Part shown: one piece after another, positions 11,583-48,400 of the stretch
How positions within the stretch are numbered: position 1 is the first letter of the stretch
Layout of the letters: the number at the start of each line of letters is the position of its first letter
From: Hypomesus transpacificus
Lineage: Eukaryota > Chordata > Actinopteri > Osmeriformes > Osmeridae
Assembly (NCBI RefSeq): GCF_021917145.1
Contig: NC_061067.1
Location: 782,537-846,536 of the forward strand
Direction: 5' to 3'
Length of the DNA: 64,000 nucleotides
Translations under genes and position numbers: made by a program
The notes under the pieces: model-generated
Told to the model about the DNA's origin: nothing
Seen by the model: only the letters and a program-made list of their open reading frames with translations
Database searches by the model: none

Positions 11583-13456
11583 GTTATTTGAGTTCTGACA
11601 AAGACTAAACTGTTAAAGTCCCTTGAATTTGTCCGGAGTTTGTAATTCAATAAATAAAAAATTGGTCTCCAAACTAGATTGAACTACTTTGAGATCACTC
11701 CAAAGACTTTTCATCGGCACAGTAGTCAGTGTATAGCGTGAAGCCGTCAACACTAGCAGGGATAACTTCGCCAGTGGCTGCAGTGCGCGTTCACCTTAAC
11801 TTGCGCACGCCCTTTGGTCGTTGGATCTTCTTTAATTGTAGCGGTCGATTCTCCATTCAGGATTCTGCTAGTAAACTGGTCCGACACAGCAGCCAATGAT
11901 CACTGCTAGTGACTCATCGTGACAGTTAAATGTATATGAGGTGTCAGAGAACGGTCAGGAACTCAGTCTAATGAATTTGCCCTAATGGCATAATGCTCTT
12001 AGCATTTTTATTGCTGCCTCGCGTTCAACAAACTGTCATCTGCTATATATTGTATTACATTCGTCTGTAAACAATGTACAATTTACATTGGGAATTGTGG
12101 TGTTGTACCGACAATATTGTGAATGGCTAATAGATTTAGTGTGTGCTTTATCATGCAATGTGAGAATACAGCCTTAACTCTTCACCATAGCCAGGATAAG
12201 GGACCAAGTAATGGTGTGTATTTGAAGCTTACACTCTAAAGTAAACCTCATAGTGACAAAACAAAGGTTTACCTTGGACTCTGAACGTTTTAGGTGTGGT
12301 TACAGCGTCACTCCAAAGTTTCCATCCAGCTCTCAATTAGGAACTATGAAATCATAATCATCCAAGTAGACAACTAATTAGTTTCTCACCGTTCACTCAT
12401 TGACGTTAAGCTTGAAATTCATAAATAAAATCGCAATTCAAAGACCGCCTAACGACTGCTGCTTATAAGAAATGTCCTGTTGATTATTCATGCATAGACA
12501 GCTCACAATAAAATGGTTTGGAGCTCCCGTCAAAGCCTATCAGAATTTCGTCAAAGCATTGTGGGAAAAGATTACAGGAGAAGTGCGCTTAGCAGCACAG
12601 TATAGCTTTGCATTGTAAACAAGCATGACCTTCTGTTTCAATGGAGAGAAGGTGCACTATTCCAAACCATTGTGTGTGAAGTTTAGATGACTATACTTCG
12701 TAAGTGCCGAAGCCCTCTCGGACGACTTGATATTGAATTAAGACTTTTCTCCCATAAAATGTATCTCTAACCACCATGATGCAAAGCAAATCCCTGTTGC
12801 AATCACATTAAATATATTATGACTAATGGGTTTTATGGGTGATTGATTCTGACTGAGTTTATCACTGTTCCAAGTTGTGATACAGTAGATCAAAGACAGA
12901 GCAAGGGAAGGTGTGAGAAAGGGGTTTGCGAGACTGTTTTCTATATTTGTGTAGCAATGCTTAAACAATTTATTGTACTCATGTTTTTGGCCAAAATCAA
13001 CAGGCGTAACTTGACCAATTTATAATACAGTATCGCAAAGCAGCTGTGAAGTCAGCCAGTAAGAGTATACTCATAACAGAAGTGTTTACAGATACATGTG
13101 AACACTGTGGATTTTAACGTGATTAAAAGTCTGAAAAATAAGCAAGTCTAAAACCTATTAAAGATGTTAAGTCACCAAAATGACATAACACTGTAATCTT
13201 AAGAGATAGAGGGATGGGAGTCATGAAGCAGGCGTTCTTCTGTCATTCATGTCATTCATTCCTACTGAAACTATAAACTTATACCACCTTTACTGAAACT
13301 GTATCACAACTTGAAAGTTTGAATGAAATCCCTTGTGTTAACCATTTTCCTAGTCCAGGAACTTGTGCCAATGGTTCTTTTATAACCTTGGCACTTGGCT
13401 AACCATGGGCTTTTCTATTTCAATATTCTCTCTGCTGCAATCAACTTACATACTTT
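11583..13456. other. Intergenic sequence upstream of the class B GPCR gene
   Basis: This should hold the promoter of the minus-strand receptor gene. I could not pick a convincing TATA box or initiator, and there is no coding exon I can support. Confidence 0.4.
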
Positions 13457-13614
13457 TACATTTAGTCATTTAGCAGATGCGCTTATCCAGAGCTACTTAC
13501 AGTAAGTACAGGGACATTCCCCCTCAAGGCAAGTATTTGGAACAGCCGGGAATCAAACCAGCAACCTTCTGATTACTTGCCCGATTCCCTAACCGCTCAG
13601 CCATCTGACTCCCT
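13457..13614 (-). repeat. tRNA-derived SINE, minus orientation
   Basis: Copy of the same SINE seen at 19436, 32149 and 42521. The head at its right end matches a tRNA-like sequence (reverse complement contains TGGCTGAGCGG and an AATCGGG block), and the tail at the left end has the shared GTCTGCTAAATGACTAAATG type sequence. The body holds the conserved block around TTACTGTAAGT. Confidence 0.85.
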
Positions 13615-16600
13615 ACTTACAGACTTGCCTCGGCATCTGTGGCAGGGAAGGATTTGAATGTTTCCCTTTCTTCCACCTTGGGCTTCAACCACGAGTTGGA
13701 AGTTAACCAGCCATACCTCTGCTGAAACCAGTGAATGGCCGAACCATGTAGCGGATATAAAGAGGAAGTTGACAATGTTTTTCAATACCTGGGCTTTAGT
13801 CCCAGCACAGTCAATTTGCAGGATTCTCATTGTGTTGAAGACATTATGGTTCACTGCTACAGTGGGAGAATCTAAAACAGATAGAAGCAAAGTAGATGAT
13901 AACTAGATTGCTGGGTCTTTATTTGGTGGAATTACACCACACACACCACTAGGGGCAGTGTCTCATAGAATTGGTTTTCCAATTAGAAAATCTGGAAGTG
14001 GAAACAAGCAGAGGCCGATGCATTATATCAATGCATATCACTTACATTGATAAATGTTTGTGTAGATTACATTTTCTTATCAGCAAGTTTGTCTCATTAG
14101 CTCTTGATTCTTTCGATTGAAACCTAGGTCTAATATAAGACATTGTATACATTTAATGTCATCAATATAGTCTGCGTTTTGCCAAAAGTTTCATTTTTGT
14201 TTTTGTTGTCACTGTTGTGAATTAATGCTGCGGTGCTGTACATATAATATTTGTTTGTTTTTTAGTAAAGAAGTGTTTCTTAAATGTTTACTTTCTGTTT
14301 TTGTTGCGTTATGGATTAACGTAACTATGTGATAATCTTTTGTTTACTTTGCTAATGTTGTGTTATGCATATTAGGGCAATTACTGTGGGGGGAATTGGT
14401 ACTTTTAGAAATCTGACCGACTTCACCTTTTGATGTCCTGAAATCCTCTCAGTCATACACCATTCAGTTTCCAGCCACTATTGCTGAAGTCACTGGCGTT
14501 TCAATTTCTTATCAGTCCTAAATTCAGATATACAGACACCACAGTAAGTGGGGGACATCACAGGACTGTAAACAGGAAGAAGGAAGATAGAGTGAGATTT
14601 ACAGAACCCTACAGAGGCCCAAGGCTAAGATTAATCAATACGATTTCTTCATCCCCATTATCATCAATTCTGCCATGTAGGAACAACATTTCTATCACAT
14701 GGTTCTTGCACACAGGAGCCACTGGTGTCACAGTATCAGTCTTATTACTCACAATCAGAGGTCGATGCTCAACCAGGAAATCAACCAAAGTGGCTATTAT
14801 GGTCTCCTTAAAAGGTTAATGGTTACAATTTTATGTCACTGTTCCAGAATGCCCTATATGTCTCTTTGGTACCGTAAATGTGCACCAATAGACGTGTTGC
14901 CCTGAGATTAGCTGGGATGGTTGCCTCAGATTAGCTGGTGTAAGTGTGTTATAGGTGCCTCACTGTGGAATCACCAGCCCTTCAAAATACGTACTCTATC
15001 TTTCCCTCTGCTAACATGAACTGAGACATTTACTTCTTCTCTGTGACTTATTTTCTAAAGAATATTAGCCTACAAGGACAGCTGAGTCACAGTAAAAAGA
15101 AAAATGAATAGAAAAACTGAAAGGAGTCTGCATCTGAAATCTCTCTTCCAACTCATCATTGTATTTTTTGTTCAAGAAATACAGCAGGCAATACTGTCGA
15201 GTCTGTTTATAATCAGAGTTACAATGAATGAGCCCTTTTTTACCATTTATAGTGTTTGTGTGTTAGTAACTGGAACCAAATAATTTGCGGCAGGAGGTTG
15301 ACAGATCATAAATAACCAAAATCCATCTGCCAAACTACTGTATATTCTTTGGTGTTAATTTAATTGCCTGGCAGTCAACTCTTTTGCGTATAATAGTCTC
15401 TCTTGTGTGTTTGCGAGTTTGAATTGGTTGAAGTATAGCCACAGCAGGCAGGTTGTTTTCAAACGCAAGTTTTTCTATTTAGTAAATGATGAGAACCTGT
15501 GAAAATCACCCCCTTATAAATAAACCGAAGCCCTGATGGATCTAGCTATAACACATTTAGCCACAGCTTTAGCCACAGCTATAACACATAGAGCTGCAGT
15601 GTTCACAAAGGTAGCCAAATGGTCTCTTCACTCTTCGGTGAGTCAAAAGAACCCTCAACGGGTGCCCAGTACACCAACACCACATTCCAGATCTGTCAGC
15701 TTCGCCCGCTCTGCGTGTGTCTCTCCAGCCAGCACTACCCCTTAATCGCCATAGTGACATACACACACACTCCCCAAGTGCAGAGGATCAGACGTGATTT
15801 TCAACGTGACCGACCAACACAAACACAATCAACAAGGCTCTGGTGAGACATCGCGAGGAACAACTGGTGCATTCCTCCACTGCCCTCCAAGACCGTACGC
15901 TGTGCCTATTTAGGGCCACTGTTTCATTTGCACACAATTTTCGAGCTTAGCAGGCAATCAGGTAACCATAATAAGGTGAGTTTATTTACACATGATGAAA
16001 CATACAGGGCTTCGTGAGTCATAGGTAGTCAAACAGGGGGCCAAGAGATGGAAAACATTTCTTTTTCCCATGGCTATCCAGCTAATGGTGTAGCTGGTTG
16101 AGAACGCACGACAAGCTGCTGCGAGCTGTGAAAGAAAACTGATTTCTTGACGGTGAACTGTTTTTAAAAATTTAATTTCGCCCTGCTTTCACACTCACAC
16201 ACACAAAGCTTCTGTATTATACTTGTATTGTCGTGCTGTAGTATGAGCGCACGGTCTTCGAGCGGGCGTCTCAAGGAGAGCCTGAGGGTCAGGGTATTGG
16301 CAGCGGATGGAGGTGCTGGAAGCAGGAAGCAGGAACCCAGAGCTGGAGGAACAGGTCAGGCACAGTGTGACAGAGTCGTTTTGGCCACCGTTCCATCTCA
16401 GGGACTAAGGAGCACCTGACACATTGGCTCACACCTCCGTGCAGAGATTACCCAGGTGGCTCGTGATGTCATGCCGAGATCTCACTCTGAAAGTCTGGAG
16501 ATGTGATTTAAACCTTGACGAGGGAACTCTGCTGACCGTGATGATGGACCCTCCTGACATACTGAAGGGTTAAATGTCTCCTCCGCTTTGATTTAAAGAT

Positions 16601-19435: not shown

Positions 19436-19630
19436 GGAGTCAGATGGCTGAGCGGTGAGGGAGTCGGGCTAGTAATCTGAAGGTTGCTGGATCGATTCCC
19501 CGCCGTGCCAAATGACGTTGTGTCATTGGGCAAGGCACTTCACCCTACTTGCCTCTGGGGGAATGTCCCCTGTATTTACTGTAAGTCGCTCTGGACAAGA
19601 GCGTCTGCTAAATGACTAAATGTAATTGTA
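19436..19630 (+). repeat. tRNA-derived SINE, plus orientation, near full length
   Basis: Starts with a tRNA-like head carrying RNA polymerase III A-box (TGGCTGAGCGG) and B-box (GGATCGATTCC) sequences, continues through a conserved body containing GGGCAAGGCACTTCACCCTA, and ends in GCTAAATGACTAAATGTAAT. The head resembles a Leu or Ser tRNA. This is the best reference copy in the window. Confidence 0.9.
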
Positions 19631-23760: not shown

Positions 23761-23968
23761 TGCACTGATAAAATGAACTTTATGGTAGAGTAAAATATAT
23801 TAACTCAATTGTCATAAATTGTACATTATTATATTAAGTTTCAGTGTGTACTACAATGTTTTGAGTAAGTATTTCAATATATACGCATTTAATTCATGTA
23901 ATAAACTAAATGTGTGGGAAGATTACGTTTTAGCACATATTTATTAATACAATTTAAATGATTTAGAG

Positions 23969-24807
23969 CAGGGGTGTCAAACTCATTTCGCATCGTGGGC
24001 CACATACGGCCTAGGGAGATGTCAAGTGGGCCGGACCATTAAAATTATACCATACTCTGCTATAAATAACCAAAATATCATGTCTTTCTTCTGTGTTATC
24101 TAGTTTAATTGATATAAAGACCATATCGTATAAACTCCGTCCAACCGCTTTAACACGTGATGATCTCTTCGGTGGTGTAGTTGGTTAAAGCATTGTACGG
24201 CTACATATTGTTAATGCGAATCTGGGATCCCAAGTTCGCGCCCCAGTCCAGTGAATCTCGTACGATATTCTTTAACTTTTACTGTGAGAAAATGACATAA
24301 TTCTAAAGGCCTACGGATGTATCACAACATTTTAATGTGTGAGCACTAATATCAGATCAAAATGAACACATGTAGCATTAATTAAATATTGAATAACGTA
24401 GGGTAGTCTACCGTCGGAGACAACCACTACGCCTCATTCAGCCAGTTTAAACGGCTGCTAGATGACGCTGTTCATTTTCAAAGCGCCGATAGTTCGGCTC
24501 TTTGGGCCGGCACAATCCGGAAGAAACCACCAAAGCTTCACAAGGCATCGTTCGCCCATCCCTAGTAGAGACCAAGGTATTAATTGATACCGTCTGCTGT
24601 TTTCAGTCTGTCTCAGTGATGCGGCTTGTCTTCTACTCTGATGGAAAGAGTGCGCCCCTTAGCGGATAATCCATGAATTACAGCGAATTAAAAATATTAA
24701 TTCCATGTCTTTTATGCATTTTTTCCACTTTCAAATTATCCTGCGGGCCTGATCGAACCTCCTTGGGGGCCGGTTCCGGCCCGCGGGCCGTATGTTTGAC
24801 ACCCCTG
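23969..24807. mobile_element. Non-autonomous hAT element, 839 bp, nested in the larger transposon
   Basis: Terminal inverted repeats are CAGGGGTGTCAAAC at the left and its reverse complement at the right. The 8-bp target duplication ATTTAGAG is perfect at 23961-23968 and 24808-24815. The ends also contain the CGTGGGCCACATACGGCC / GGCCGTATG blocks common in this hAT class. No transposase frame remains. It carries a tRNA-like segment near 24170-24245. Confidence 0.92.
24166..24250 (+). repeat. tRNA-like segment with A and B boxes inside the hAT
   Basis: TGGTGTAGTTGGTTAAAGC resembles a polymerase III A box and AGTTCGCGCCCC a B box, about 55 bases apart. The segment does not fold into an acceptable tRNA by eye, so it looks like a tRNA-derived relic captured by the element. 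Confidence 0.45.
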
Positions 24808-24982
24808 ATTTAGAGTCACTATAAATACACCAAAAAATACTAAGTAAATTTTAATCAAAAACTAGCCCTTTCATCTGCGCTTGCGCCCTTGGACTTGAGA
24901 AGATACGCGCGATTTTACTTCGGTCAGAGACGGTTGGTTCAGAGAATGTAGAAGTGCTCTGGTTGGGTTGAACAGCATCCAT

Positions 24983-27900
24983 ATGTTATCTCTGGTGAGT
25001 TTTACCTTTCTTTTTAAAATGTGTAATAATATATGGGTCATTTTGTTAGCTTCTTGTTTGCTTGTATACTATTCACAGCGAAATTAGGCTAGACATAAGT
25101 GATTTATCTGTGCTAGCTGTAATTGTTAGTTCTAGATAGCTACAGTAGCTACAGTAGTTAGCTAGCTAACATACGTAGCTAACAATGCAGGAAAGCTCCG
25201 CTATATATTTAACTTCTATAAAAACGTAAGGCACAAAAGTGTAGAGGGAGATTATTCACAAGCAGAAAAAAGCAATTGTTGCTAGCTTTAACTAGCTAGC
25301 TGCACATGGCAAACCATCGCTATCAACGTTCTGGAAAAAATAATCATGTCAGGTTAACTTAAATTTAGCCATCAATGTATCTCTAATTTAGTATTTCAAG
25401 ATGCCTACTTTAGTGGATGAGTTATGTAAATGTCACTTGAATGAATTTACAACATGCTGACCAAACCAGGGTATATACTGGAATATAGCTAACTAGTTCA
25501 TCTAACCTTTCTGCACTCGGTAGCACGTGTCAGCAGCATGATTGCCAGTTCCTTGTGCTACCAGTCAGCAGCAGGATTGCCAGTTCCAGCAAACATTTCC
25601 AGCCCAAAGAGTGCTCAAAACCAGCCCAAAATGCCTGAAAACTAGCCCATTAATTTTTGGGTGTACAAGTGTACAAGTTAAACATTTATCCCCAAAAATT
25701 ATAATGTAAAAATAACTGGTGGATTAATATTTTCCTTATTTTCTGCTATTCTCTCTTTTTTCGTACATTGGCTATTCTTTAAGAGCACTTGATAAGGAGA
25801 CTGACAGTAATTTAACATGTTTCTATCAACAGTAATCAGTGAGTTGGAAGGGATAGGTCAGAGGAGTGATTGGCTGTAACATTAGTAGGCAAGTAGAAAT
25901 CTGTATTTATGAAACAATATTACTGTTTATCTTCAATGAAATGATAATTTTTTTAATATCACAAATTGTGTGTTCTTTTACAGGGTGACCTTACGGTTAG
26001 GACGGGTCCAGGGAGGAAGTCCATTAGATGGATGTCATCAGTGAGAAACCGTAGGCATACTATGAGATGGTCATGCAAAAATTGCGAATTTAGGGCATCA
26101 AAACGTTTAGAGCTTTTAAAGCATTATAGATTGAAACATCTACACACCGGTCAGGGCCGGTCACTACCCTGCTTGTACTCTGATTGTCCTTGTTCATTTA
26201 AAGGATGGGGTGCACTTCGCACACATTTGTCTAGAGATCATACACCAACTGAACAGTTTGAGCAGATAGTTTCATTTTCATGTCTTGTATGCCATTTATC
26301 TAGTTTTCACACAGAGAGGCAATATTTTGAACATCTCGGAGCTCACCTGAAAAAGCACGAAACTCTTCATTGTGTCTTTAAAGATTGTGACTACAGTACT
26401 AATATATATTCAACTTTTGCTTCACATAAAAGTAGAAAGCACAATCCTCACTGCCTTGATGATTTTAAACATACTGTACTTTCGACATATTCAAGTCAGG
26501 CTACAGAGGATAGTAGTGTGTTGGTAGAAGAGCGTGAAGTTACTTCAAATGAAACGCTTGTCAGAGAGGATGACGATTTAGTTAAAGTCATTGTTGATAA
26601 GCTTGGTTCCTTGTTGCTTAAATTAGAATGCATCTTCAATGTGCCTAGTAGATGTATAGATGACATTGCAGAGGAGCTTCAATTTATTACTTGTTCAGCA
26701 TCCTCACCCATTATCAAAAACATTGTCCATACTACATTTGAAAACCATAACTGCGCTGTTGAAGAATTGGTGATCACAGAATTGGTGAATAGCATTTGCC
26801 AATTGAATCCTGTAAGTGCAGCCTTTAGTGAAGAAGGTCCTCTTGGCACAGCATACCAGAGAAACAAGTACTTGAAAGAACGTTTCTCTATTGTTGAACC
26901 GTTAGAGTATATATTAGATGCAAAAGAGGGAAGGACTTTTCAATATGTACCAATTTTGCAATCCTTGTCACAAGTTCTGAAAAATGTTGACATTCAGGAG
27001 AAGCTGTTAAAGACTGCAAGACGTTGTGGTTCTTCATGTCAGTATACAAGTTTTCATGATGGTTCCCACTTCAAAGAAAACAGCTTTCTATCTGGAGAGG
27101 AGTTAAGACTTTCAATTTTACTCTACTGTGATGATTTTGAAATATGTAATCCATTAGGAACCTCTCGTAAGAAGCACAAGGTAACAGGTGTCTACTGGGT
27201 GTTGGCTGATATTCCATCTGTATTAAGGTCAACATTATCTTCCATTTACTTAGCTGTTTTGTGCAAGGCAGACGACGTAAAGAAATTTGGCTATCCTCAA
27301 GTGCTAGAGCCATTATTAAGTGATTTGAAAAGCTTAGAAGAGGATGGTCTTTTTGTACCCTGTTTGGGAAAAATCATAAAGGGCACTGTATTTTCTGTGA
27401 TTGCCGATAACCTTGGTGCCCACTCAGTCGGGGGGTTTGTTGAAAGTTTCAGTGGGTCATACAATTGCAGATTTTGTGTCGGACAGCGGTCCCAGTTTCA
27501 GGAACTTGAAGTCAGGACAGGAGCATTCCTTGGTAGAACAAAACAGCAACACCAGTTGGATGTTGAAGCAGCATTGGCTAGTAACACCCATAGCCATGGA
27601 GTTAAAAGGCATTGTGCAATTACTCAAAGGTTAAAGCATTTTCATGTGACAACAGGTTACCCACCGGATGTATTACATGATTTACTTGAGGGTATTGTAC
27701 CTGTAGAATTGGCATTGTGTTTAGATATCTTGATCAAAAAAAAATATTTCTCTCTTGAAGAGCTCAATAGTATCATCAAGAAGTTCCCATATAAGTGGAA
27801 AGACAGAACAAATTGTCCGATACGTATACCACCAACCTTTTCCTCTCGTAACACCATTGGTGGTAACGCACATGAAAATTGGTGCTTACTGAGGTTGCTT

Positions 27901-28713
27901 CCACTTATGATTGGCTCTAAAGTACAGGAAGAGGAACAGACATGGCAGTTGTTGATGACACTCAAAGATGTTGTTGAGTTGGTTATGTCACCTACCCACA
28001 CAGATGAAAGCATTGGTCACCTAGATAGCCTTATTGCTGAGCATCGGCGTAGATTTAGCAGTGTTTTTCCACAAAGAAAATTGATTCCAAAACACCATTT
28101 TGTAGAGCATTACCCGCAGCTCATTAAAGCATTCGGCCCATTAGTGTCCTTATGGACGATGAGGTTCGAAGCCAAACACCGCTTCTTTAAGAAGATAGTG
28201 AGACAGACAAGCTGTTTCCGTAACATTTTAAAGTCTATGGCAAAAAAACACCAGTCCATGATTGCATACCATCTCCATGGTTCAAATGTCAATAAACCTG
28301 CTGTCTCTGTATCAAAGATGTCAAGGGTTCCATTAGAGATTGTAAATGAGAACATACAAGAATTTCTATCACAGAAATTTCCTGAAGAGACAGTTGTTCA
28401 TTTGACAAACAAGGTAGAATCTCAGGGCATCAGTTACAGTATTGGCATGATGTTGGTCTATGGCAACACTGGTGGGTTACCAGACTTTGCTGAAATACTA
28501 CAAATCATGATAGTTTGTAACAGTGTTGTGTTTGTAGTGAAAATGCAAAGTACATGGTACACTGAGCATTTTAGATGTTTCAAGGTGGAGTCCACGAGCA
28601 TTGTGAAAGTAATTCATCAATCACAACTCACTGACATGTACCCACTTGCTACATATACAATCGAAGGCTGTCGAATGGTTTCTTTGAAACACTACATCTG
28701 CTTGTCAAACTAG
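24983..28713 (+). CDS. C2H2 zinc-finger transposase of the CACTG two-gene element (913 aa)
   Basis: Two coding exons: 24983-24994 (ATG and three codons, then GTGAGT) and 25984-28713; the junction keeps frame. Residues about 30-165 contain a run of C2H2-type fingers (CKNCEFRASKRLELLKHYRLKH, CLYSDCPCSF, CLVCHLS, CVFKDCDYST). The rest has motifs shared by a large fish transposon family: YCDDFEICNPLG, a VIADNLGAH block, a CRFC pair, DVLHDLLEG (a DxxH motif), GGNAHENW and LWTMRFEAKH. These offer plausible D, D and E catalytic residues of an RNase H-like fold, but that assignment is inference. The frame is uninterrupted. A splice donor follows the TAG stop directly, so the same transcript may continue into the SAMD3-like gene. 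Confidence 0.82.
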
Positions 28714-28813
28714 GTAAAGTTTCACTATAAACAAAAGTTTTCATGAATACTGCAATCATATGCTCTAGCCATGTCTTTTTTTCCTCTTGCAGTTCTGCTT
28801 TCCCAAGGCTGTG

Positions 28814-30964
28814 ATGTCTAACCCCAGTCAACTACGTGTCATTATTGAAGAGACTGAAATTCACAAATTAATCCTACCAGATGGAATTCCTAGTACCTTA
28901 GACGAACTTTTGGCAGCTGCGAAGCATAATTTTGATCTTGAAGGGAGTTATGCAGTAATGCATATGGACAAAGATTTTGATAACCAATTCTTTACGTTAA
29001 CATCTACAGATGTGGTCAACGACAAAGACACTATAAAACTAGTGAAAACAGATCCTTCTATTATTCTCACATTGAGTCCCATCAATGAGCCTGCTGCTTC
29101 TTCTTCTCCAGTGCCACTTTCTTTCCAGGATGACAGTTCCTCAGTTAGTTCATCCGATACCTTGATGTTACCACTGTCCCCAGACTACAGATCAGAACCG
29201 TGGCCAACTACTTTTGTGATACCCACTTTTTCATATAATGTCGAAATCCCCCTTCAAGCAGGAAACAAGGCTTATGAAAGTGATGGCTCACTCCTTCAAA
29301 ATCCAAGCATGAACTCTGACGTACTTGAGAAACTTGCTGAAGCTATATTTCAGTACACTGCCTATCCCACTGGACGTCAAATACAGGCAGTTGTAGAATC
29401 CCTGTTGGCAAAGCATCCTTGCCTAAGGGAGCCTGGAACTTCATATTCAGGCATGTACGGGTGGCAGCAGCGTCTTAAATACAAGATGGCAAATTTCCGT
29501 TCTAAACTGCGAAGGCGTGAAGTACATTGTCCTGAACTTGACATCAACTCATTGAAAAGGAAATCTCCTGGGGAGAAAAATCCAGCCAAAAACTGTAAGA
29601 GACCAAAGAGAGCAGAGGTAAACTACCTTCCTCCACATCCAAGTGGAGAAACTAGCAACACTCTGGAGATGGAGAGACTGCAGCTTCTTAATGAGGTAAA
29701 GAAGAAGAACAACACTAAGGTGATAGCAGAAAAAATGGCCAAAACATTCTCCTATCGAAGGCTTGAGGTTGTGAGTGGTAGTCCAGCTGCCGATGACTTC
29801 CAAGAGAGATGGCCAGCTTTGTTTTGTGAAGCAGAGGTAGGTGAACATACAAACCCCTTTATTTACCCCTTTTAAAATTTAACTTTAAATACTTCTCAAT
29901 GTTAAGATTGGAAGCCAAATTAGTGTTCCTCTTAAAGTGCAGAATTTCCTCGTCCTCTTGCATGAGACTGGTTGGCCTGATTCCTGATGTTGTACTTGTG
30001 AATCTTTTGTCCATTCAGATCAAAGAGGAATTCAGGAGAATTACTACAATTTCCCTGGAGCAGAGATTCATGCACAAACTGGATCACTACACACCAAGAC
30101 TTATTTCCCTGATGAAGGCCAAGGGAGGTGTCGTGGGGACCAAGCTGAGGCCGCTCCTGGACAAACTGAGTCAGGTGTGCTTGTTCACTTTTTGGCAGGG
30201 GAGACTCACACATACACAAGCACTTTGCCGAATGCGTACACATAGCACAAATCCTCACACTATAGATTTTTAGATGCCCCTATATGCTCTATCCACACAT
30301 AGCTTGAGCTTAAATCTCTGCTTGTGTTCTAACTCCAAAAACCTACATCCTGTGATTCAGACTAACACAACATTAATCTATTCACAGCACCAAAGCATTG
30401 AAACGAAACGTGAAGCTGTTATCCGCAGCCTTATACTGTACCTTGCAGAGAAAGAAGAGGACCTTTTTGAAGATTGCCAAGTAAAGCCTGATTTTCTAAA
30501 TACATATTTTATGACATGGTTTGAAATTGGAATGTGTTGTCATTTCAAGTCCAAGGTAACCCTAAAGTAAAAGATGTAAGCCAATTTAGGGATCAAGATA
30601 TTCCGCTCTGCTCAATGTAAAATACTCTTAACAGAATTGTCTGAATTTTTTGTGTGAACGTATGCAGGAGGACAGCCGCAGTGATGCCACTCAACACATC
30701 CTGAAGATCCTTGTTGTTCATGGTGCTGATGGAGAGGATCCAGTGGATGTGTCCATCCTTCTTGAAGGCAAGGAGATGTTGCCAGGATGCGGGAGTTCTG
30801 CTAAAGCTTGCGCGCTGGTCATGGGGCTGATTTATGCCCTCAACCTGGCATACCCCCCAACACTGCGCTACACTTTTGAAGTTTTTCAAAAACTTTTCCT
30901 AGAACTGGATGGGATTAAGCTGTCCCCAAAAATACAAGCTTTCAAATGTAAGTTGCTGTCTTAA
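28814..30964 (+). CDS. SAMD3-like accessory protein of the CACTG two-gene element (522 aa)
   Basis: Four exons join in phase 0: 28814-29836, 30019-30174, 30388-30480, 30668-30964. The start is the ATG reading MSNPSQLRV, just after a strong acceptor at 28792. Residues 1-80 look like a PB1/ubiquitin-like fold ([13 protein letters not shown], then a DFDNQFFTL block). A central basic region ([22 protein letters not shown]) suggests a nuclear localisation signal. The C-terminal exons match proteins annotated in fish as 'sterile alpha motif domain-containing 3-like' ([20 protein letters not shown], then [10 protein letters not shown]). The gene sits 100 bases downstream of the transposase in the same orientation, so it is probably the partner protein rather than a host gene. 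Its molecular function is unknown to me. Confidence 0.8.
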
Positions 30965-32148
30965 ATGCTACCACCATGGCAGGTGCAGTCAATCTTGTTA
31001 GAGCTTATGACAGTTTAGTTAACATATTATACTCTACCACAAAGTTAAGAATTTATTAGTTTGAAATCCAATATGTCAGTTACACACAGACATGATTTAA
31101 AAAGGAAATCTACGTTTCTTTTTTTATTTTACCACGCACTGTCATAAAACACTTTATTTTTTATAAACACATGCAGCTTTAGAGTTCATCAGGACATGTG
31201 TTGGCTTTTTGATGAAGTAACAATCTGTTGAACCACTCCTTACTGTTTGAATGCATTCACAAAGCCTGTTGGCAGAATTTATTACTTGCATTCCTAACCC
31301 AAATACATGCATTTTCTTTAGTCATGTAAGCCTTGCAGTTGTTAAAATGGTCATGCTAGACACCTGAGTGTTTCACAGACTTCTGATTTAAGAGTTTTTG
31401 GCTTGTACCTTGTGAATTGATAGAGCAGTGATTTGATAACATTTATAAAAAAATAAATTTGGACAAAAGAAAAACTGATTAATTGTATTTTGTGTGTGAT
31501 TTGTGATGCAAGTATATTGAATGCATAGGTAATGATAACATTAATTTGGTAATATTTATCAAAAGATAATTTGATGAAAATGTCCATATTGTCAATAATA
31601 TAACTTTATTACTGACTTATTTACAAACAAAAATATAATAATACCCACTTAATTATTTCATAACAGTAAATATTACTGTCATAAGATTTACTTATTACGT
31701 TGAGCACAGCAGATTTCCTGTCAGAATTTTTTTATTGACTTTACTTAATTGTTTTAAATAAATATAACTCATACAATACATATAATTAAGTAAGCTTTAC
31801 TGTATCCCTACGAATGTGAAGTTTAGTGGTAAGTACGTTTTACTAGGTTCAGGCTAATGAGTTCTACTTGATATAAGAGCAGTACAATTTACTTGAAAAG
31901 TACTAGTGCAAATTGTTACGAGGATTTTATCAAGTATATCTTACAAGTTTTTTTTTTCAGTGTGCTCTTGGAACACTTTAAATTATTTCTCACATCCCTT
32001 CTCGTTTTCTAAACCTTTGTTTTATCATAAAAAAGTTGTTGCTCTTAACTGATGATAAAAGGTTGCAGAGGTAACTGTGGCAGACAATTACAGTTTGGAC
32101 TGTGCATGGGATGTTAGAGGAAATCATGAAAGGTTATCTGGGGGGTTA

Positions 32149-32335
32149 GGGTCAGATGGTTGAGCGGTTAGGGAGCCGGGCTATTAATCAGAAGGTTGTT
32201 GGTTCGATTCCTGGCCATGCAAAATTATGTTGTGTCCTTGGGCAAGGCACTTCACCCTACTTACCTCGGGGAGAATGTCCCTGTACTTACTGTAAGTCGC
32301 TCTGGATAAGAGCGTCTGCTAAATGACTAAATGTT
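32149..32335 (+). repeat. tRNA-derived SINE, plus orientation
   Basis: Same family as 19436-19630: head GTCAGATGGTTGAGCGG, a GGTTCGATTCC B-box, body with GGGCAAGGCACTTCACCCTA and tail GCTAAATGACTAAATG. It inserted about 190 bases outside the right end of the CACTG transposon. Confidence 0.9.
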
Positions 32336-37573: not shown

Positions 37574-40500
37574 TCACTCTGGGCTTTCAGCCTGCATCCT
37601 GTTAAAGTAGAGGACTGCAGGCTCCTGGGCAAGGTTGTGAATGTTGTAGGCATGTCCTGGTTACATGAACAGGAGAAGAGCCACAAGGGAGTATTGAGGA
37701 TTCATCATGTTTTACTTCTGAGCTTAGTTTTCCTAAAGACCCTGTCACGCTGCACAGCTAATTGATTTGCCCATGAAAGACATTTCCAACGCTGCGTGGA
37801 AAATCATAGGTTGTGAACATTTAACCCATTTAACCTCAGATAAAGCATAATCCTGGATTTAATAAAAAAAAGAACAAAAGGCTTTTAGTTCTGCACTAGT
37901 CTTAATCGGTTTTGAAAAATAGATGAAGGGAAATCAAAGAGTTCTTACCACACGGGACCATGAACGTTTGTCCGGGGTTGTAAAGTGACACCTTCCCGTT
38001 GATGGTCACTCGGACACAGCTTGTCAGAACATTATAAACCTGGAAAAGAAACAACAACCAAAATCTTCTGAGTCTGTTTCTGAGGAATTGAGACCATAGA
38101 GGTAATTCACTGCAATACGAGACATACTTGTGAAGGACGACCAACAAAAGAAGAAACTAGACTGAGGAAAGATGCAGGAAGGAAGTCGAGTGGACTCACT
38201 GATGTGAAGCTGTGATCCACCCATAGAGGCTTCTTCATGAAGGAGCCCAGCAGGATTCTTCCGCTGCAGAAGGAGCTGGCCTGCAGGTCCACGCGGAGGC
38301 CCAGGGCTCGGCCACGGTAGGAGTACCACTGGAACTGCTCTGGACTTATCTGCCCCCCCCCTGCAGTAGCCACAGAAAGATACTGCATGACACGTCAGAT
38401 ACAGAACATCCCTCACAATGGAAGCAGATAAAGAAGGTAAACGGGATCTGGGTCTGGTCTGTGCCTTTAAGGAATCCTTAAAGTTACACAGACACACACT
38501 GTAGATGTGTTATGGACGTGTAGAGTTCTGATTTCAACCAACAACAAACAAACATGTAGTCTGGGACAAAGGTGTGCACAGGAGGCACAAACATATCTGA
38601 GCCTCCATGTTGTAGGCACCTCGGAAAGAAACGTAGCTTTGGGATAAATGTGTAACTGCTGTCCAAACACAGGCGTTGGGGTGAGAAGCATTCCTGGATG
38701 TCTGATCTCACATCACCCTGTCCCAGAGGTGCAGCCCCTGCTTGGAGGGTCCTGGGCTCACCTTTGATGGTGGTGGGCCAGAGCACCTTGAGCCACTCCT
38801 GCAGGTTGGCCCTGTCCTCCTGCTGCAGAAGCAGCGGCCTGAGAGGAGGCCCACACAGCTCAGAGCCAGCCAGGACAGGCACAGACAATCTGGACGAAGG
38901 TAAACCTGACGGAGGTCAAGGATACAGCATTGTTCAGCACTTCAACAGGAGATTTTTTTTTTGGGACAAAGACGTTGTTGTTGTTCGAGTGATGTTGTTT
39001 GTTGCTGTTTAGGGCCACAGAGTTAAGAACTTACACAAGTCCTCGTCTTCCTCGTGATGCTCCAGATCGACCATGGAGGACGGCCCACTTATGAAGCCCT
39101 TTAACCTGTGGGAAAAACAAAAAAACAGCGTCCACACTTGAATTCTCAGTTCACTGTGAAGACTCAGTGTAGAACTGAGGGAACAGACTGTTCAAAACAT
39201 GGACCCTGTGAAAGGAGGAGTGAAGGGGGTACTCACGTGTTGTCTGACAGGCGTTGGCTAATGGAGGGCCAGCTCAGCCTCTTTCCCAGCTCTCCTGCAG
39301 ACTCCATACACACTGAGGTGGTATGAGTCCCTACAGGACTGGAAGTATCATCACAAGGGATCAAGCTGCCGGAAGGTTCTTGATCCGGATCGACATCTTC
39401 AGTGTTGGTACCCTCGCTGGCGACACTGCTCTGGGCCGAACCTTGGCCCTGGGAGGGGAACAACGTTTTACGTCCTCCATCCCGGGCCGCACTTCTGACC
39501 CTCGCCACCGGGGGCACTGTGTCACCTGAGGTGAAGATGGCTGCGAACGTGGCCAGGGACCTCTTTGCCGTCTTGGGAGCAGAGAGGTCTTTCTTCTTCA
39601 GTGGTGGCTCGGGCGCTGTGTGGCGAGTTTTGGGCGAGCGGGCCAATCTGCCGTTCTGATGCGGTCTGAGAGAAGGTGACTTGTGTGCTTTGGGCTGCTT
39701 CGCCTCACCTTTTTGCCTTTTCGTGTTCTTGTCGTTGGGTTTCCGTGGCGACGAGGGCGTGGCCTCTACGTCGGCGGGGGGACTGCCAATCTCCCACCAG
39801 TTTCCGGGAGCTTTCCGGCATCGTTTTTCTTGCATGGGAATATTTTCGTGATTATGGGGTCTTTGAGGTGTGGAGGGGTGGTTCAGGGCTGACTTTGCGT
39901 TGGGGGTGCGACTATAGACCCGGTCAAACACCTTTTCACCTGTTAAGTCATAGTGTGCACAATCAGAACAGCAACAACACAAAACACACCATCCACCTAC
40001 AGCCCATGCAGACCACAGCCAACTCCTTAATGGACGAGCATTATTCCACTACCTATCAATTTTATTAAGCGATCAAATTAAAAATAATAACAGCTGAGAT
40101 TCCACATTATATTAGTATGATGTTTGTTGAGGTTTTAACCATCCTTACTGGGAGTGGAGGTATGTTGTCTGAGTGGACTGGGCTGTGGGCTGAGCTCTCC
40201 CTGGTCACGGCTACCAGAGTCGACCACAGCTTCCACTTCTGTCTCAGCAGGTTTTTCTGGTTTTGGTCGGCTGCTCTTCCTCTTCCTGGTGTGCCTGGCC
40301 CTCGTACCAGCCTTCTTAGGCTGTGGTTCTCCAGACCGCCTGGTTGAGAGCTTTGACGGCTTCTTGTCACTCACATCTCCACCTCCTTCCAGCGCCTCGT
40401 CCTGCACCACAGGCAGGGAGACGGCACCCTTTGCTGTCTTCCTGCTGCTCTGTTTAGACTTTTTAACAGCTGGTCCACTGTCGGCCTCGGTCTTCATGGT

Positions 40501-43500
40501 TTTGTCAGACACACCTAGCCACCAGGCCCCAGGCGCACACTTCTTTCTCTTCCCTAGCACAGGGCTCTCTGCACACGTGTCAGAAACACCCACAGTGGAG
40601 GGCTTGGACTCTGGACCCTTAGGGTTGGAGGGGACCTTAGAAGTTGCTTTTCTTTGTCCTTTTTGAAGTTTGTTCTTTGCCTTTTCTGAAGAGAAAAAGT
40701 CAACAAGAGTGGAGAATGAGATATTAATACTAACAACATGTTCATATACAGGAGAGGACACATACGTAGTTATGTCTACGCCTTTAAGCTATCGAAATTA
40801 AAACACATATACACACACAACGTCTGTGACATGACTGAACAAAGGAAGCTTGATACACATGTTCTCTGGTTCAGGGGAAGCCTTACCTGGCGCAGAATCC
40901 TCCTCCTCCTTCCTGTCTCCACCAACTGATAGGGACAGGAAGTCTACATCTCCTCCAGGCTCCTCCAAGTCCTCCATGTGACCAGGTTCTGCAGCAGGTT
41001 GTGGCAGCTCCAGCCCAGGGGAAAGTTCCCTGTTCCCCTTGGCAGACTTGCTTCTTCCCCTCTTGGGCTTCTCCAGACCACCTTTGGCAGGTTTGGATCT
41101 TTGAGCATCTGATGGTTTGGGAGCTTTCTCCTCCGTCTTTTGTTCTCTTTTGCTGGGTTTGCCAGAGGCACCTTCTCCGTGTCGGTCCTTCTGTCCATCT
41201 TCTTTGGCGGATGGAGCTTTAGATGAAACCTTGGTAGCTCCTTTCTTCTTGGACTGAGGTTTGTCTCTGTCGTCCTGATTGGTCAACCCACCGGCCTTGC
41301 TTTCGGGCCTCGTCAATCTTCCAGGACTGGAGCTCTCCTCTCGGTTCATCACAGCACCCTTCCTGTCCGTGCATGTGGAGAGGACAGATCTCGATGACAC
41401 GCCTCTCGATGACACTGCCTTCCCTTTTCTTCCCTTTCCTTCCTGTTGAACCGGGTTCTCCGTTCCCTCCGGGGGTTCCTGCACCCCGGGAGCACAGCCT
41501 CCATGGTCCCGCTGAGGAACCACGTCTGCAGACGCGTCCTTGTTGGATGAAGAACTCTGAACTTTATTCTGCTTGGCTCGTGCCTTGCTTTTGTTCGGGT
41601 CAGTCTTCCTCGGGATGGAAAACAAGCTAGGGCCATCGTCCTCCAGGATCATGAAGTCATCGTCAAAGTCCTCAGGAGGTTGGCTCACTTTAGAAGGCAC
41701 CGGCTTTGAGCTGGAAAACATGGGAGTGTGTTTACTTCAAGGACTCTTAGCACTAGCACCCCCAGGATACGGTTACTGTGGTCGTGAGCTTAAACAAGAG
41801 CGTTGTGTTATGGAAACAGGCAGTCAATCGTAAACCCATTGAGGACAAAGGGAGGCGGTATCCTGGTCTTACCGTGCTGGTATGGGCTGGCTGGCCTCCC
41901 TCAGTTTTAACAGAAAGGCAAACGCGTCTTTCTGCTTTTCTTTGGACTTGTCCTCTGTCACCAGGGAGGGTCTGGTCTCACAAGGTTGGGTGTCTTGTGT
42001 CATTGTTGAGACTAAAGGGCAAGACCTTTCTTGCCTGGGTAAAAGCCGAAACAATAAACAATACAAATTAAAAAAAGAATATAAATCCTCAAAATGATCA
42101 CAGCTGTGAGAACCGTCTCCCCCCCCCCCCCCCCCGGTACGCTACACTGCAGAAGCATAAACTTGTTCTGGATACTGACTTTAAGGTTTAATTAAATGAT
42201 TCTTACGAGGATTCTTTTGGAATGGACTGAGGTACAGCACATTGGACACTCTGTGATGGGTTTTCCAGGATTTGACGATTCTCTTCACTGCAAACAGATC
42301 ACGTCAACATATCACGCTGATACTGCCAAGGTCCTGTCATAATCTACAATACCAACGTCAGAGAAATGCGAATAACAAATGCAAATAACTCACTGATTAA
42401 CTGAGTATTTTCATTCAAAAGTCTTACCAAGGTGCTTTTCTTTTGCAAAGCAAAGCAAACTTCGTCGGAGGCGAGTCCACCCCAAGGTCATCCCCACTAC
42501 AATGAGGACGGACGGGACAGTTACATTTAGCAGAAGCTCTTATCATGAGCGACTTACAGTAAGTACAGGGACATTTCCCCCGACGCAGGTAGGGTGAAGT
42601 GCCTTGCCCAAGGACACAACGTCATTCGGCACGGCGAGGAATTGATCCGGCAACCTTCTGATTACTAGGCCGACTCCCTCACCGCTCAGCCATCTGACTC
42701 CCCACAGTAACCAAGTATGCACTTACCTCATCACCACGATATCACATTTATAAAAGCACCTACTAAAAACACATGAATAACACCAAAGGACATTTATTTA
42801 GGACATCCCCTTACCTGTCTGTTGCCTGTCTACTGCAGTGCACTTCCTGTCCACTGGAGTGCACTTCCTGTGAGGTGGAGGAGTTGAGTTTGGGAGGGAC
42901 ATCCTCTTCATCCTCACAGACAAACAGGAGAGGAGAGGCTGTCTTGTCTCTATAGCAACAGCCTGCGTTGTCCACATGCACCTCCTGCTCAATGGGACTT
43001 GATGTCTTGATGGGGCCGTGTTCGTTGAAGGGGGTCACTACCTCTAATGGACAACAGTGGAAATGGTACAGCCTCATAGGTGAAAAGGTCAACCTTATAA
43101 TTAGGTTCAAAATACAGGCCTTTAAACTGGTCATATTTGAAATTATAGTGATTACTTCCAAACTTCTCAGTTTCACAACATGTATTTTACCAGTTACAGT
43201 AAATTACTCTATTGTGCATGCATGTTTCTTACCAGTATCAAGTGTAGGGCAGTACAATGCCTTTAATGGCTCACATTTTAGCTCCTCAGGTATAACAGCC
43301 TGAGACACCAGACATGGCTCTTTAAGAGGAGATGGTTCTGGAACAGGTAGTGCACTTCCCTGCTCCTCTACAGCAGGACATGTCTCTTTAAGAGGAGATG
43401 GTTCTGGAACAGGTGATGCACTTCCCTGCTCCTCTACAGCAGGACATGTCTTCGGTATGGGAGACAGAGTTGGTAGATCCAGCTCTTCCTCTGAGGTAGA

Positions 43501-44660: not shown

Positions 44661-44826
44661 CCCATTCCATTTCCATTTAGTCATTTAGCAGACGCTGTTA
44701 TCCAGAGCGACTTACCCATTCCATTTCCATTTAGTCATTTAGCAGACGCTGTTATCCAGAGCGACTTACAAGTTCAGGGACATTCCCCTGAGGCAATTAG
44801 GGTGAAGTGCCTTGCCCAAGGACAAA
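44661..44826 (-). repeat. Partial SINE tail with a 54-bp tandem duplication
   Basis: The segment 44661-44714 (CCCATTCCATTTCC then the SINE tail up to GCGACTTA) is repeated exactly at 44715-44768, followed by a further part of the SINE body ending near the GCCTTGCCCAAGG block. The tRNA-like head is missing. Confidence 0.88.
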
Positions 44827-45450: not shown

Positions 45451-48400
45451 CTAAAGAAATATTTTCCTTGTCTTTTCTGCAATCTCCATTGGAGAAACCG
45501 CTTCGTCTGGGCGGACATGTTTGTACAGGGGGTTCTTGATGTGTCTCCACACAACCAACCCAATCCTTACGACGAACAGGAAACAGGTCAAACCCATCAG
45601 CACAGCTATGGGGAGGAAATACAAATAAACCAATGAACATCTTGGTGTACATATAGTGTGTCCAGGGCCAAAAACCATCTTGAATTGTTTATTGTAATAA
45701 TGTATTAATATACTGTATAATACTGTTGTGAAAACAAAACACAAACAAAAGGCAGTGCCATGTAGGCCTATCTGTACCACCAGTATTTGTCTTCTTGGAT
45801 TTGATCCCTGCATTTATAGTTTTTGTTAATGTTCCTTACCCTCGAAGACAGCATTGCGACTGGGAGAAGACGCATCATAGTTCTTTGTCAAGTTTCCAGC
45901 CAGGGCCACAATCACAACCGGGTAGATCGTGAGGATGTAGCGCATGTGTTTGTCTAAAACAAAGTTCTCCAGAACAAACCTGGCAAAGATTAACCAATAT
46001 AAAGATGAAAATACACACCAATCTCTTCCTCTGTCTAGACATACTGCAGTAAGCCCACTATGAAAATCATGCATGGCTACTCTTTTTGATACATGAGATG
46101 GTTTAATCTGTACTTACCAAACAACCAACACCACAGTCAGAATAGAGAGAGATACTGTTGCAGCATCTGTTGCAGACAGACTTCCATCATAGTTCATTAC
46201 AATTGTCAGGTTGATCAAGGTAGCAATGGATGTCCAAGTTGTGTAGGTGGACAGTGCATTCTGAACCTGAAAACATAGCACAATGTGTGTGAGAAAAGAC
46301 TATCGGTGGTTGAACTCATTGACATATACAATAACAATATCAAAATGTAAACTTTTTCACAAAAAGTAAATGTAACAGTTTGTTGGATGAAAAAAGAAAC
46401 TACCACACTGTCACTGTCACGGCCACAGCCGTGCCCCCCCCCCCCCCGGTTTCATTTTTGTCCCTGCCCCGGTGTTCCCTGTCTCATTGTCTTCACCCGT
46501 GTCTCGTTCAGTTCTCGTTAGTTTCATTGTGTCCACCTATGTCTTGATTGTTTCTGTGAATTTAGGTTCCTGTTTTGTGCCCAGCCTTTGTCTTGGCATT
46601 ACCCTTTGTCCCTGCGTGTTACCTTGTCTGTGTCCCAGTTTATGAGAAATAAACCCCTTTTGTTTGACAATGCTTGCCAACTCCCCTGCATTTGGGTCCA
46701 ACCCCACCTCACGTCGTGACAGACTGTGCATTTTACAGAAAAGAAACGGTCCTACTCACTAATGCACGGATGAGCCAGAGGTCTACTTTGTGGTATTTGT
46801 TGAGCCAGGCACCATAGATGTGAAGTCCGTGACAGGTGAAGAATATCGCAACATAGTTTGTGCAGGCAACCAGAAACAAAAAAACCAAAGCTGGTATCAT
46901 GTACCTTCGAAAGAAAAGAAACCATCAGATTACAAAAAGGTTTAAGAAAACAACATTAGTCTACCCTAAATATTATAGGTTTACTTAGATTTCCTAACTT
47001 CCAGGTAATAACCAGGTTTAGAAGAAATTAACTTTCTTATAGAAAAAATATACAGTGCCCTCCAAAAGTATTGGAACAGTGAGGCCAATTCCTTTATTTT
47101 TGCTGTAGACTGAAAACATTTGGGCTTGACATCAAACGATGAATGTGAAACCAGAGATCAACGTTTCAGCTTTTATTTCCAGGTATTTACATCAGGATCT
47201 GATGCACAAATTAGAAAATATCACCTTTTTGTTCGAACCCACCCATTTGTCACGTGAGCAAAAGTATTGGAACATGTGACTGACAGGTGTGTTTTGTTGC
47301 CCAGGTGTGTCCTATTACATACATTATTCAATCAATAAATACCACTGAATGTCTACACTCAGGTTCAGATTGGGTAAGATAGGTTTTGTCTATGCAGACT
47401 GTATTCAGAGGTGAAAACAACATGAAAACCAGAGCGCTGTCTTTGGGTGAAAAACAAGCAATTGTGAGTCTTAGAGAAGATGGAAAATCAATCAGAGCCA
47501 TTGCAGAAACATTGGCCATAGCCAGTACAACCATTTGGAATGTCCTGAAGAAGAAGAAAACTACTGGTGTACTAAGTAACAGACGTCGAACAGGTAGACC
47601 AAGGAAAACATCAGCAGTTGATGACAGAAACATTGTGAGAGCTGTAAAGAAAGACCCTAAAACAACTGTTAGTGAGATCAGCAACAACCTCCAGATGGCA
47701 GGAGTGAAGGTATCACTATCTACTGTTCGCAGAAGACTTCATGAACAAAAGTACAAGGGCTACACCAGAAGATGCAAACCACTCATTAGCAAGAAGAATA
47801 GGAAGGCCAGGCTGGAATTTGCCAAAAAGTACAGAGATGAACCTCAAAAATTCTGGGACAAAGTTTTATGGACTGATGAGACAAAGATTAACTTTTACCA
47901 AAGTGATGGAAAGGCTAAAGTTTGGAGAAAGAAAGGAACTGCTCATGATCCCAAACACACAAGCTCATCTGTGAAACACGGTGGAGGTAATGTCATGGCT
48001 TGGGCTTGCATGGCTTCTTCTGGGACGGGCTCATTAATCTTCATTGAGGATGTAACACATGATGGCAGCAGCAAAATGAACTCGGAAGTCTACAGAAACA
48101 TTTTGTCTGCCAATTTAAGGAAAGATGCAACCAAACTGATTGGCAGAGCCTTCATCATGCAGCAAGATAACGACCCAAAACACACTGCCAAAACAACAAA
48201 GGAGTTCATCAGGGGCAAGAAATGGAAGGTATTAGACTGGCCAAGTCAATCTCCAGACTTAAACCCTATAGAGCATGCATTTGACCTGCTTAAGAGGAGA
48301 CTGAAGGGAGGAACCCCACAAAACAAACAACAACTGAAAGAGGCTGCAGTGAAAGCCTGGGAAAGCATCAAAAAGGAAGAATGCAAAAGTTTGGTGACGT

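Follow-up and report, generated by a model that had tools for sequence, protein, structure and literature searches.

The maize element En/Spm, prototype of the EnSpm/CACTA elements, combines CAC...GTG ends and a short target duplication with a DDE transposase bearing C(2)C and H(3-4)H motifs and with a second protein; the accessible part of PMC1636069 describes the Spm proteins TnpA and TnpD as products of one alternatively spliced unit, which interact and are both needed. In this work, we analyzed a two-gene DNA element at positions 23763-31962 of a 64,000-nucleotide stretch of the Hypomesus transpacificus genome (hereafter the window; C8:782537-846536 in a 437-Mb, 376-contig assembly, all copy comparisons being confined to that one genome). 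The element resembles En/Spm in its ends, its short target duplication, the motifs of its transposase and the presence of a second protein, and its predicted splice sites are compatible with one spliced unit. We show that the stretch 23763-31962 is one mobile element, and we consider it probable that it represents a recently mobile CMCT-clade cut-and-paste transposon in which gene 2, the partner of the transposase gene (gene 1), encodes a TnpA-like, self-associating, end-binding helper.

Weak matches to Transposase_21 and DUF4218 among the relatives of the window element may further recall the EnSpm/CACTA elements, whereas its CACTG instead of CACTA ends, the N-terminal C2H2 fingers of its transposase and a gene 2 with no Pfam match set it apart from them. 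According to the available text of PMC4158355, plant CACTA elements have CACTA termini and a 3-bp target duplication; with its CACTG ends and 2-bp duplication, the present element is therefore not a canonical plant CACTA element. SmTRC1 of Schistosoma is likewise an animal element with 2-bp duplications in some copies, a second protein and several spliced transcripts, but its ends are of the CCC type and, in the accessible part of PMC1636069, its second proteins have no detectable relatives, whereas the partner protein of the window is conserved across clades. ESTA and the fungal EnSpm elements with TET/JBP genes, compared here by description only from the available part of PMC12730594, share with the window element the CMCT clade, short duplications and an accessory gene beside the DDE transposase; their accessory product, however, is a dioxygenase and not a PB1- or SAM-fronted protein. 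In plant MUGB, a domesticated Mutator, a PB1 module is also joined to a transposon-derived protein, although, as far as the accessible text of PMC8616336 goes, that module was probably acquired before the host exapted the precursor, whereas here it is found on the partner protein of mobile elements. What the window offers is a compact, apparently intact animal two-component system of CACTA type whose boundaries are confirmed, and with it the role of the second CACTA protein becomes testable in animal cells.

Boundaries and movement of the element

The element, its ends and the repeats within it are located as follows.

23763-31962, plus strand: whole two-gene CACTG-ended transposon, 8,200 bp (ends from the C365 copy and the 2-bp duplications)
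23761-23762, no strand: target site duplication TG, left copy (flank comparison)
31963-31964, no strand: target site duplication TG, right copy (flank comparison)
23763-23780, plus strand: left terminal inverted repeat CACTGATAAAATGAACTT, beginning with CACTG (end comparison and pattern count)
31945-31962, minus strand: right terminal inverted repeat, ending in CAGTG, reversed CACTGAAAAAAAAAACTT (end comparison and pattern count)
23776-23817, plus strand: inner inverted repeat, left arm (42 nt, 88%; repeat search)
31005-31046, minus strand: inner inverted repeat, right arm, ~0.9 kb inside the right terminus
23969-24807, no strand: nested element of ~839 bp, flanked by the 8-bp duplication ATTTAGAG at 23961-23968 and 24808-24815

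A second copy, C365 (650.6-657.9 kb), is 99.8% identical to the window element. The alignment of both copies starts exactly at 23763 and overshoots 31962 by six bases, which we attribute to chance, and the sequences are divergent beyond it on both sides. Since the match stops at both ends and the C365 copy is flanked by a 2-bp duplication of its own, TA/TA versus TG/TG at the window copy, it provides independent proof of the boundaries. An earlier note on this DNA had described one mobile unit with two genes between 18-bp CACTG ends and TG flanks; C365 agrees with this description, and the coordinates given there were exact. Over ~7.35 kb the two copies differ by 12 substitutions and two one-base indels, one in each gene, and these few differences indicate that they separated recently. 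The nested element, which occupies the left part of the transposon and has CAGGGGTGTCAAAC ends, is lacking in C365, where ATTTAGAG is present once; we tentatively take it to be hAT-like. Without it and its extra target copy, the transposon of the window measures 7,353 bp. The 18-bp termini are identical at 15 of 18 positions when the left one is compared with the reversed right one, and the left-end pattern, allowing up to three mismatches, was matched three times in the window (two of the matches being these ends) against a shuffle mean of 0.15. The left end of the window family also starts exactly at C8:11189744, with TA before it, and its right end was found at C1:10859060, with TG after it, and, one base shorter, at C2:8072422.

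A protein search with the transposase gave 58 matches at the 51 of 273 candidates that were scored, and 30 loci (L numbers) were drawn from it. Ten further copies were fetched with their flanks: C365 and nine more diverged relatives. The ends of the relatives were set by where the similarity between near-identical copies stops (C21a/C11a, C15/C8b/C8c and C13b/C109). CACTG ends with 2-bp duplications were found in seven of the nine, each confirmed by near-identical sister copies, the duplicated bases being TA in C21a, C11a, C8c and C109, TG in C15 and C13b, and CA in C8b. C17 has a candidate end pair (14/20) with TA, and the best end pair of C13a (15/20) comes with a 3-bp repeat, its 2-bp pair reaching 13/20; both copies are without a sister and their ends are unconfirmed. 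In a control for this end search, 2 of 21 overlapping window blocks outside the element reached at least 14/20 together with a 2-bp repeat, and given such chance pairs the ends of single copies were not counted as proof.

When joined flanks were searched against the genome, paralogous empty sites with a single target copy were obtained for C8b, C15 and C8c, and a base-level check of one empty site each gave 77/80, 77/80 and 73/80 identical positions, respectively. This search of ten sites is based on the 40 of 3,722 candidates that were scored, and no weight is given to the absence of an empty site for C11a, C17, C13b and C109. No clear empty site was detected in this assembly for the insertions of the window, C365 and C21a, and a weak 72% match to the C365 junction at C9:18723271 was left out of the count. 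The earlier note had suggested looking for further copies and for empty sites. Within the same genome, copies with CACTG boundaries and 2-bp duplications at unrelated sites do exist; the expectation of empty sites was borne out by paralogous sites for three relatives, but not for the window's own insertion.

Two observations on the ends of related families may be added here. At L053 (C1:10858960-10859159), a relic right end of the window family lies ~20 bp from a left end of C21a type, as a result of side-by-side insertions of two related families. In the subterminal regions of C21a (L033/L034), 10-mers of the TTGGGCAAAA type are present in five copies close to the ends, the shuffle maximum being 4; they are possibly a binding motif for the partner protein, or else part of a local repeat, and the C21a family also has repeated sequence near its right end.

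The transposase gene and its partner

Both genes are on the plus strand, and their predicted parts, together with two candidate introns, are given below.

26032-28713, plus strand: gene 1, C2H2 zinc-finger DDE transposase (ATG at 26032, stop at 28711-28713, 893 amino acids)
28814-29836, plus strand: gene 2 exon A, with the PB1-like domain at 28814-29080 followed by the middle region
30019-30174, plus strand: gene 2 exon B, predicted and recovered in relatives
30388-30555, plus strand: gene 2 exon C, predicted and poorly recovered in relatives
30668-30964, plus strand: gene 2 exon D, with the conserved C-terminal domain, stop included
24995-25983, plus strand: candidate 5' leader intron, donor GTGAGT at 24995 chosen by eye, acceptor ...TTTTACAG scored
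28714-28792, plus strand: candidate intercistronic intron, donor GTAAAG right after the gene-1 stop, acceptor CTCTTGCAG

The gene-1 protein has N-terminal C2H2-type fingers, and its profile matches in a structure database are convincing for C2H2-finger proteins only. It carries the residues D367 (27130-27132), D459 (27406-27408), C479/C482, H689/H693 and E713 (28168-28170), of which D459, both cysteines, both histidines and E713 are invariant across eight aligned transposases. The transposase tree was built with 25 of the 30 loci, five near-duplicates or pieces being omitted and L016 and L021 being partly covered; in this set D459, both cysteines, the second histidine and the glutamate are kept wherever covered, and L017 is without the first histidine. 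Pfam Transposase_21 was matched in two of the eight transposases scanned (best expectation value, E, 9.4e-4) and DUF4218 in three of them (best E 2.8e-3), the window protein itself reaching DUF4218 at E 0.15 only. A search of solved structures with each window protein gave nothing, and no gene-1 relative was found in viral contigs. The accessible part of PMC12730594 describes the pattern D, D, C(2)C, H(3-4)H, E in EnSpm, Mirage, Chapaev, Transib and their kin; this residue pattern and the weak Pfam matches of the relatives place gene 1 in the CMCT clade as a putative EnSpm/CACTA-like transposase, the class being set by these two kinds of evidence. In the window copy both frames are open (gene 1 as a single open reading frame, gene 2 as predicted exons) and the DDE residues are present; the element may thus be autonomous. 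L011 and L012 (C13, C109) are 99%-identical copies of the SAM type described below, which lie at different sites and have 2-bp duplications despite a missing first aspartate; perhaps they moved in trans.

Gene 2 is predicted to consist of four phase-0 exons with GT/AG borders that encode 547 amino acids. The earlier note had reported two intact open frames, which is correct for gene 1, but gene 2 is composed of four exons and not of one frame. No Pfam family was matched by the whole spliced gene 2. In C21a, C17 and C15, spliced alignment recovered exons A, B and D but left exon C uncertain; the gene 2 of C13a needed five pieces, and stops were present in several of the models. In all ten fetched copies, tblastn places gene 2 downstream of gene 1; its match is weak (E 0.008) in C13b and C109, but a profile built from the other clade retrieves both at ~2e-7. 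Across the genome, the 64 matches to exon A form 38 clusters; 18 of these are preceded by gene 1 on the same strand at a distance of 47 to 4,757 bp, and among the matches listed no other arrangement of the two genes was seen within 10 kb of these clusters. This distribution differs from what the earlier note had named as the contrary outcome, namely two genes kept at one syntenic site without termini, which was not seen. The same mobile boundaries enclose both genes, and the pair co-occurs in diverged families. No description of this partner gene was found among the literature matches listed, a search that did not cover Repbase reports.

The N-terminus of the partner was surveyed at 29 of the 30 loci (L010 omitted), several of them being fragments of a single copy. 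Thirteen loci (L001-L009, L014, L016, L017 and L021) showed a PB1-like start, L018 showed it weakly, and five (L011, L012, L013, L026 and L029) showed a SAM-like start. Since the PB1 and SAM profiles were built from some of the surveyed copies, the independent loci are L014, L016, L017 and L021 for PB1 and L013, L026 and L029 for SAM. Pfam PB1 (PF00564) was matched by three of nine members (best E 6.8e-4), and Pfam SAM_TNK by two of three SAM-type members (best E 1.4e-4, with the scores shown under the curated cut-off). In searches of solved structures, the SAM profile retrieved no SAM protein and the PB1 profile nothing convincing; a SAM profile built from a relative did not match gene 2 of the window. 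The middle region is predicted to be helical in a low-confidence model of the window protein (predicted local distance difference test, pLDDT, 42). A profile of this region, made from four PB1-type proteins, found all five SAM-type loci among 1,366 open reading frames (E 3e-8 to 8e-5), which argues for a shared body with a different front. On the transposase tree, the PB1 and SAM types are each on one side of a supported branch (96/97, 100/100).

A third clade shows gene-2-like C-terminal exons upstream of the transposase in seven of its nine loci (L019, L020, L022-L024, L027 and L028), and by the tree these seven seem to make up two families of near-copies; no upstream exons of this kind were found in L025 and L030. 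A middle-region fragment lies upstream of gene 1 in L019 and L020 (E 3e-4). With the PB1-type C-terminal profile, L022 and L024 (both E 1.9e-4) and L023 (1.2e-3) were retrieved from 3,640 open reading frames, two SAM-type copies appearing at 5e-4 and 9e-4 in the same search, and the other third-clade loci are linked through a profile from L019 and L022, hhalign between both profiles giving a probability of 75%. Pfam returned nothing for the N-terminus of the third-clade gene 2. With the C-terminal domain located upstream of gene 1, these matches amount to moderate evidence that the partner gene precedes the transposase in this clade.

Regarding expression, PB1-type copies have 99-641 bp between the stop of gene 1 and the first match to gene 2. 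All five of the PB1-type lineages examined contain a predicted acceptor 10-21 nt upstream of the ATG of gene 2 (21 nt in the window, CTCTTGCAG); with the approximate table used, equally high scores were reached by 0.7, 2.0, 2.6, 4.6 and 3.0% of random windows. By eye, window/C365, C21a/C11a and the C15-type copies show a donor-like GT no more than ~8 nt from the stop of gene 1. These predicted splice sites fit a single transcription unit for the two genes in the PB1 type, but not in two SAM-type copies.

Incomplete relatives of the gene pair also occur. At L058 (C53:417400-424400), the finger start of gene 1 stands near gene-2 exons B-D, the rest of gene 1 and exon A being missing, and the locus looks like an internal-deletion derivative; a search for CACTG ends found none there. 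Matches to the gene-2 C-terminus without exon A are located at C21:1953977, C13:3533273 and C23:9717478.

Possible role of the partner protein and rival explanations

In the model that we favor, one promoter near the left end would give rise to both proteins, either by alternative splicing or from a two-gene message. The gene-1 product would cut and join the transposon ends, and the middle and C-terminal regions of the gene-2 product would bind DNA or the transposase, its N-terminal PB1-like module (SAM-like in the sister clade) self-associating and so assisting in the pairing of the ends. Self-association is a known function of PB1 as well as of SAM modules, so their difference suggests that oligomerisation is the property needed. 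The swap of the front module on a retained partner hints at how this protein may work, and the difference between sister clades provides a natural experiment for finding out which of its properties is required. A more detailed version can be proposed tentatively, as a possibility we would not yet bet on: a conserved body with interchangeable modules (PB1/SAM) that polymerise head to tail, so that a filament of the partner along subterminal DNA pairs the ends, the partner gene having switched sides in the third clade.

Several observations weigh against a helper acting at the ends of a CACTA-like element. The terminal inverted repeats are short and imperfect, no k-mer in the subterminal regions of the window exceeds the shuffle maximum, and the first catalytic aspartate is missing from L011 and L012. 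Twenty of the 38 gene-2 clusters are without a scored gene 1 nearby (on 51 of 273 gene-1 candidates scored); a stop interrupts the matched piece in 18 of these 20, versus 6 of the 18 linked clusters. The name PB1-like, used in the earlier note, has weak to moderate support from the PB1 matches of the relatives, but the window's own N-terminal domain has no Pfam PB1 match. Besides, the PB1 scores, where shown, are under the curated cut-off, the best PB1 structure in the profile search of solved structures has an E of 0.67, and the ubiquitin-like strand order of the exon-A structure model comes with a pLDDT of 42. As for co-expression, no donor-like GT was seen by eye in C17 and C13a, and in C13b and C109, both of the SAM type, a single base separates the gene-1 stop from the putative gene-2 ATG. 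The pattern of an acceptor before the ATG is therefore not general, and in these two copies production of the second protein would depend on re-initiation or a different splice.

The main rival explanation accepts the same transposon and regards gene 2 as a passenger with a regulatory or anti-silencing function on chromatin or methylation, kept because it is protective. Accessory genes of such a kind, as TET in fungal EnSpm, are documented in EnSpm elements in the accessible part of PMC12730594, Spm TnpA acts also on its methylated promoter according to the available text of PMC1636069, and the lack of an outstanding subterminal motif in the window is in line with such a role. However, three deep clades retain the core protein, with N-termini and gene orders that differ among them, and the spacing and splice sites of the PB1 type suggest co-expression with the transposase. 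Conservation among clades and signs of co-expression appear to fit a core role better than a passenger role, which we regard as rather unlikely. The extent of the unit can also be read in another way, since the 42-nt, 88% repeat (23776-23817 / 31005-31046) pairs better than the 18-bp termini: the right end of an ancestral unit would have been near 31064, and the ~0.9 kb up to 31962 would have been recruited through a cryptic CAGTG as a new end. C365 and the right ends on C1 and C2 all extend to the 31962 end (C2 being one base short), so the present mobile unit ends there, and the inner repeat may instead be a subterminal binding site; we consider this smaller ancestor improbable.

The least credible explanation, to which we give hardly any weight, is that a domesticated transposase and an adjacent SAMD3-like gene, both belonging to the host, only resemble a transposon. 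It would be in line with the remark in the earlier note that fish copies are often annotated as host genes, and it is contradicted by a near-exact duplicate elsewhere in the genome that has another 2-bp duplication, by dispersed families with the same two-gene unit and by the paralogous empty sites of relatives. The host-gene reading of 23763-31962 was rejected on the duplications and on the existence of C365 as a second copy. It is worth re-examining gene models of this kind in fish (SAMD3-like according to the earlier note), because some of them may be transposon genes.

Neighbouring sequences in the window

Outside the element, three long open frames on the minus strand at 39233-41721 belong to a probable host gene; Pfam gave no match on these frames, and two of them contain an 'APG.WW' motif, which we take to recall CENP-C. 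A Tc1/mariner-type element with 180-nt inverted ends (96%) is located at 47050-48716 and has an open 345-amino-acid transposase frame (HTH_Tnp_Tc3_2 at E 6e-25, DDE_3 at E 1e-13). A short interspersed repeat is present in four copies, on both strands, at 13451-13616, 19436-19630, 32149-32334 and 42524-42705. Two of these copies, those near 19 kb and 32 kb, contain a match to the UnaL2 LINE (long interspersed nuclear element) 3' element; one more UnaL2 match, separate from the repeat copies, is found at 44729-44782 on the minus strand.

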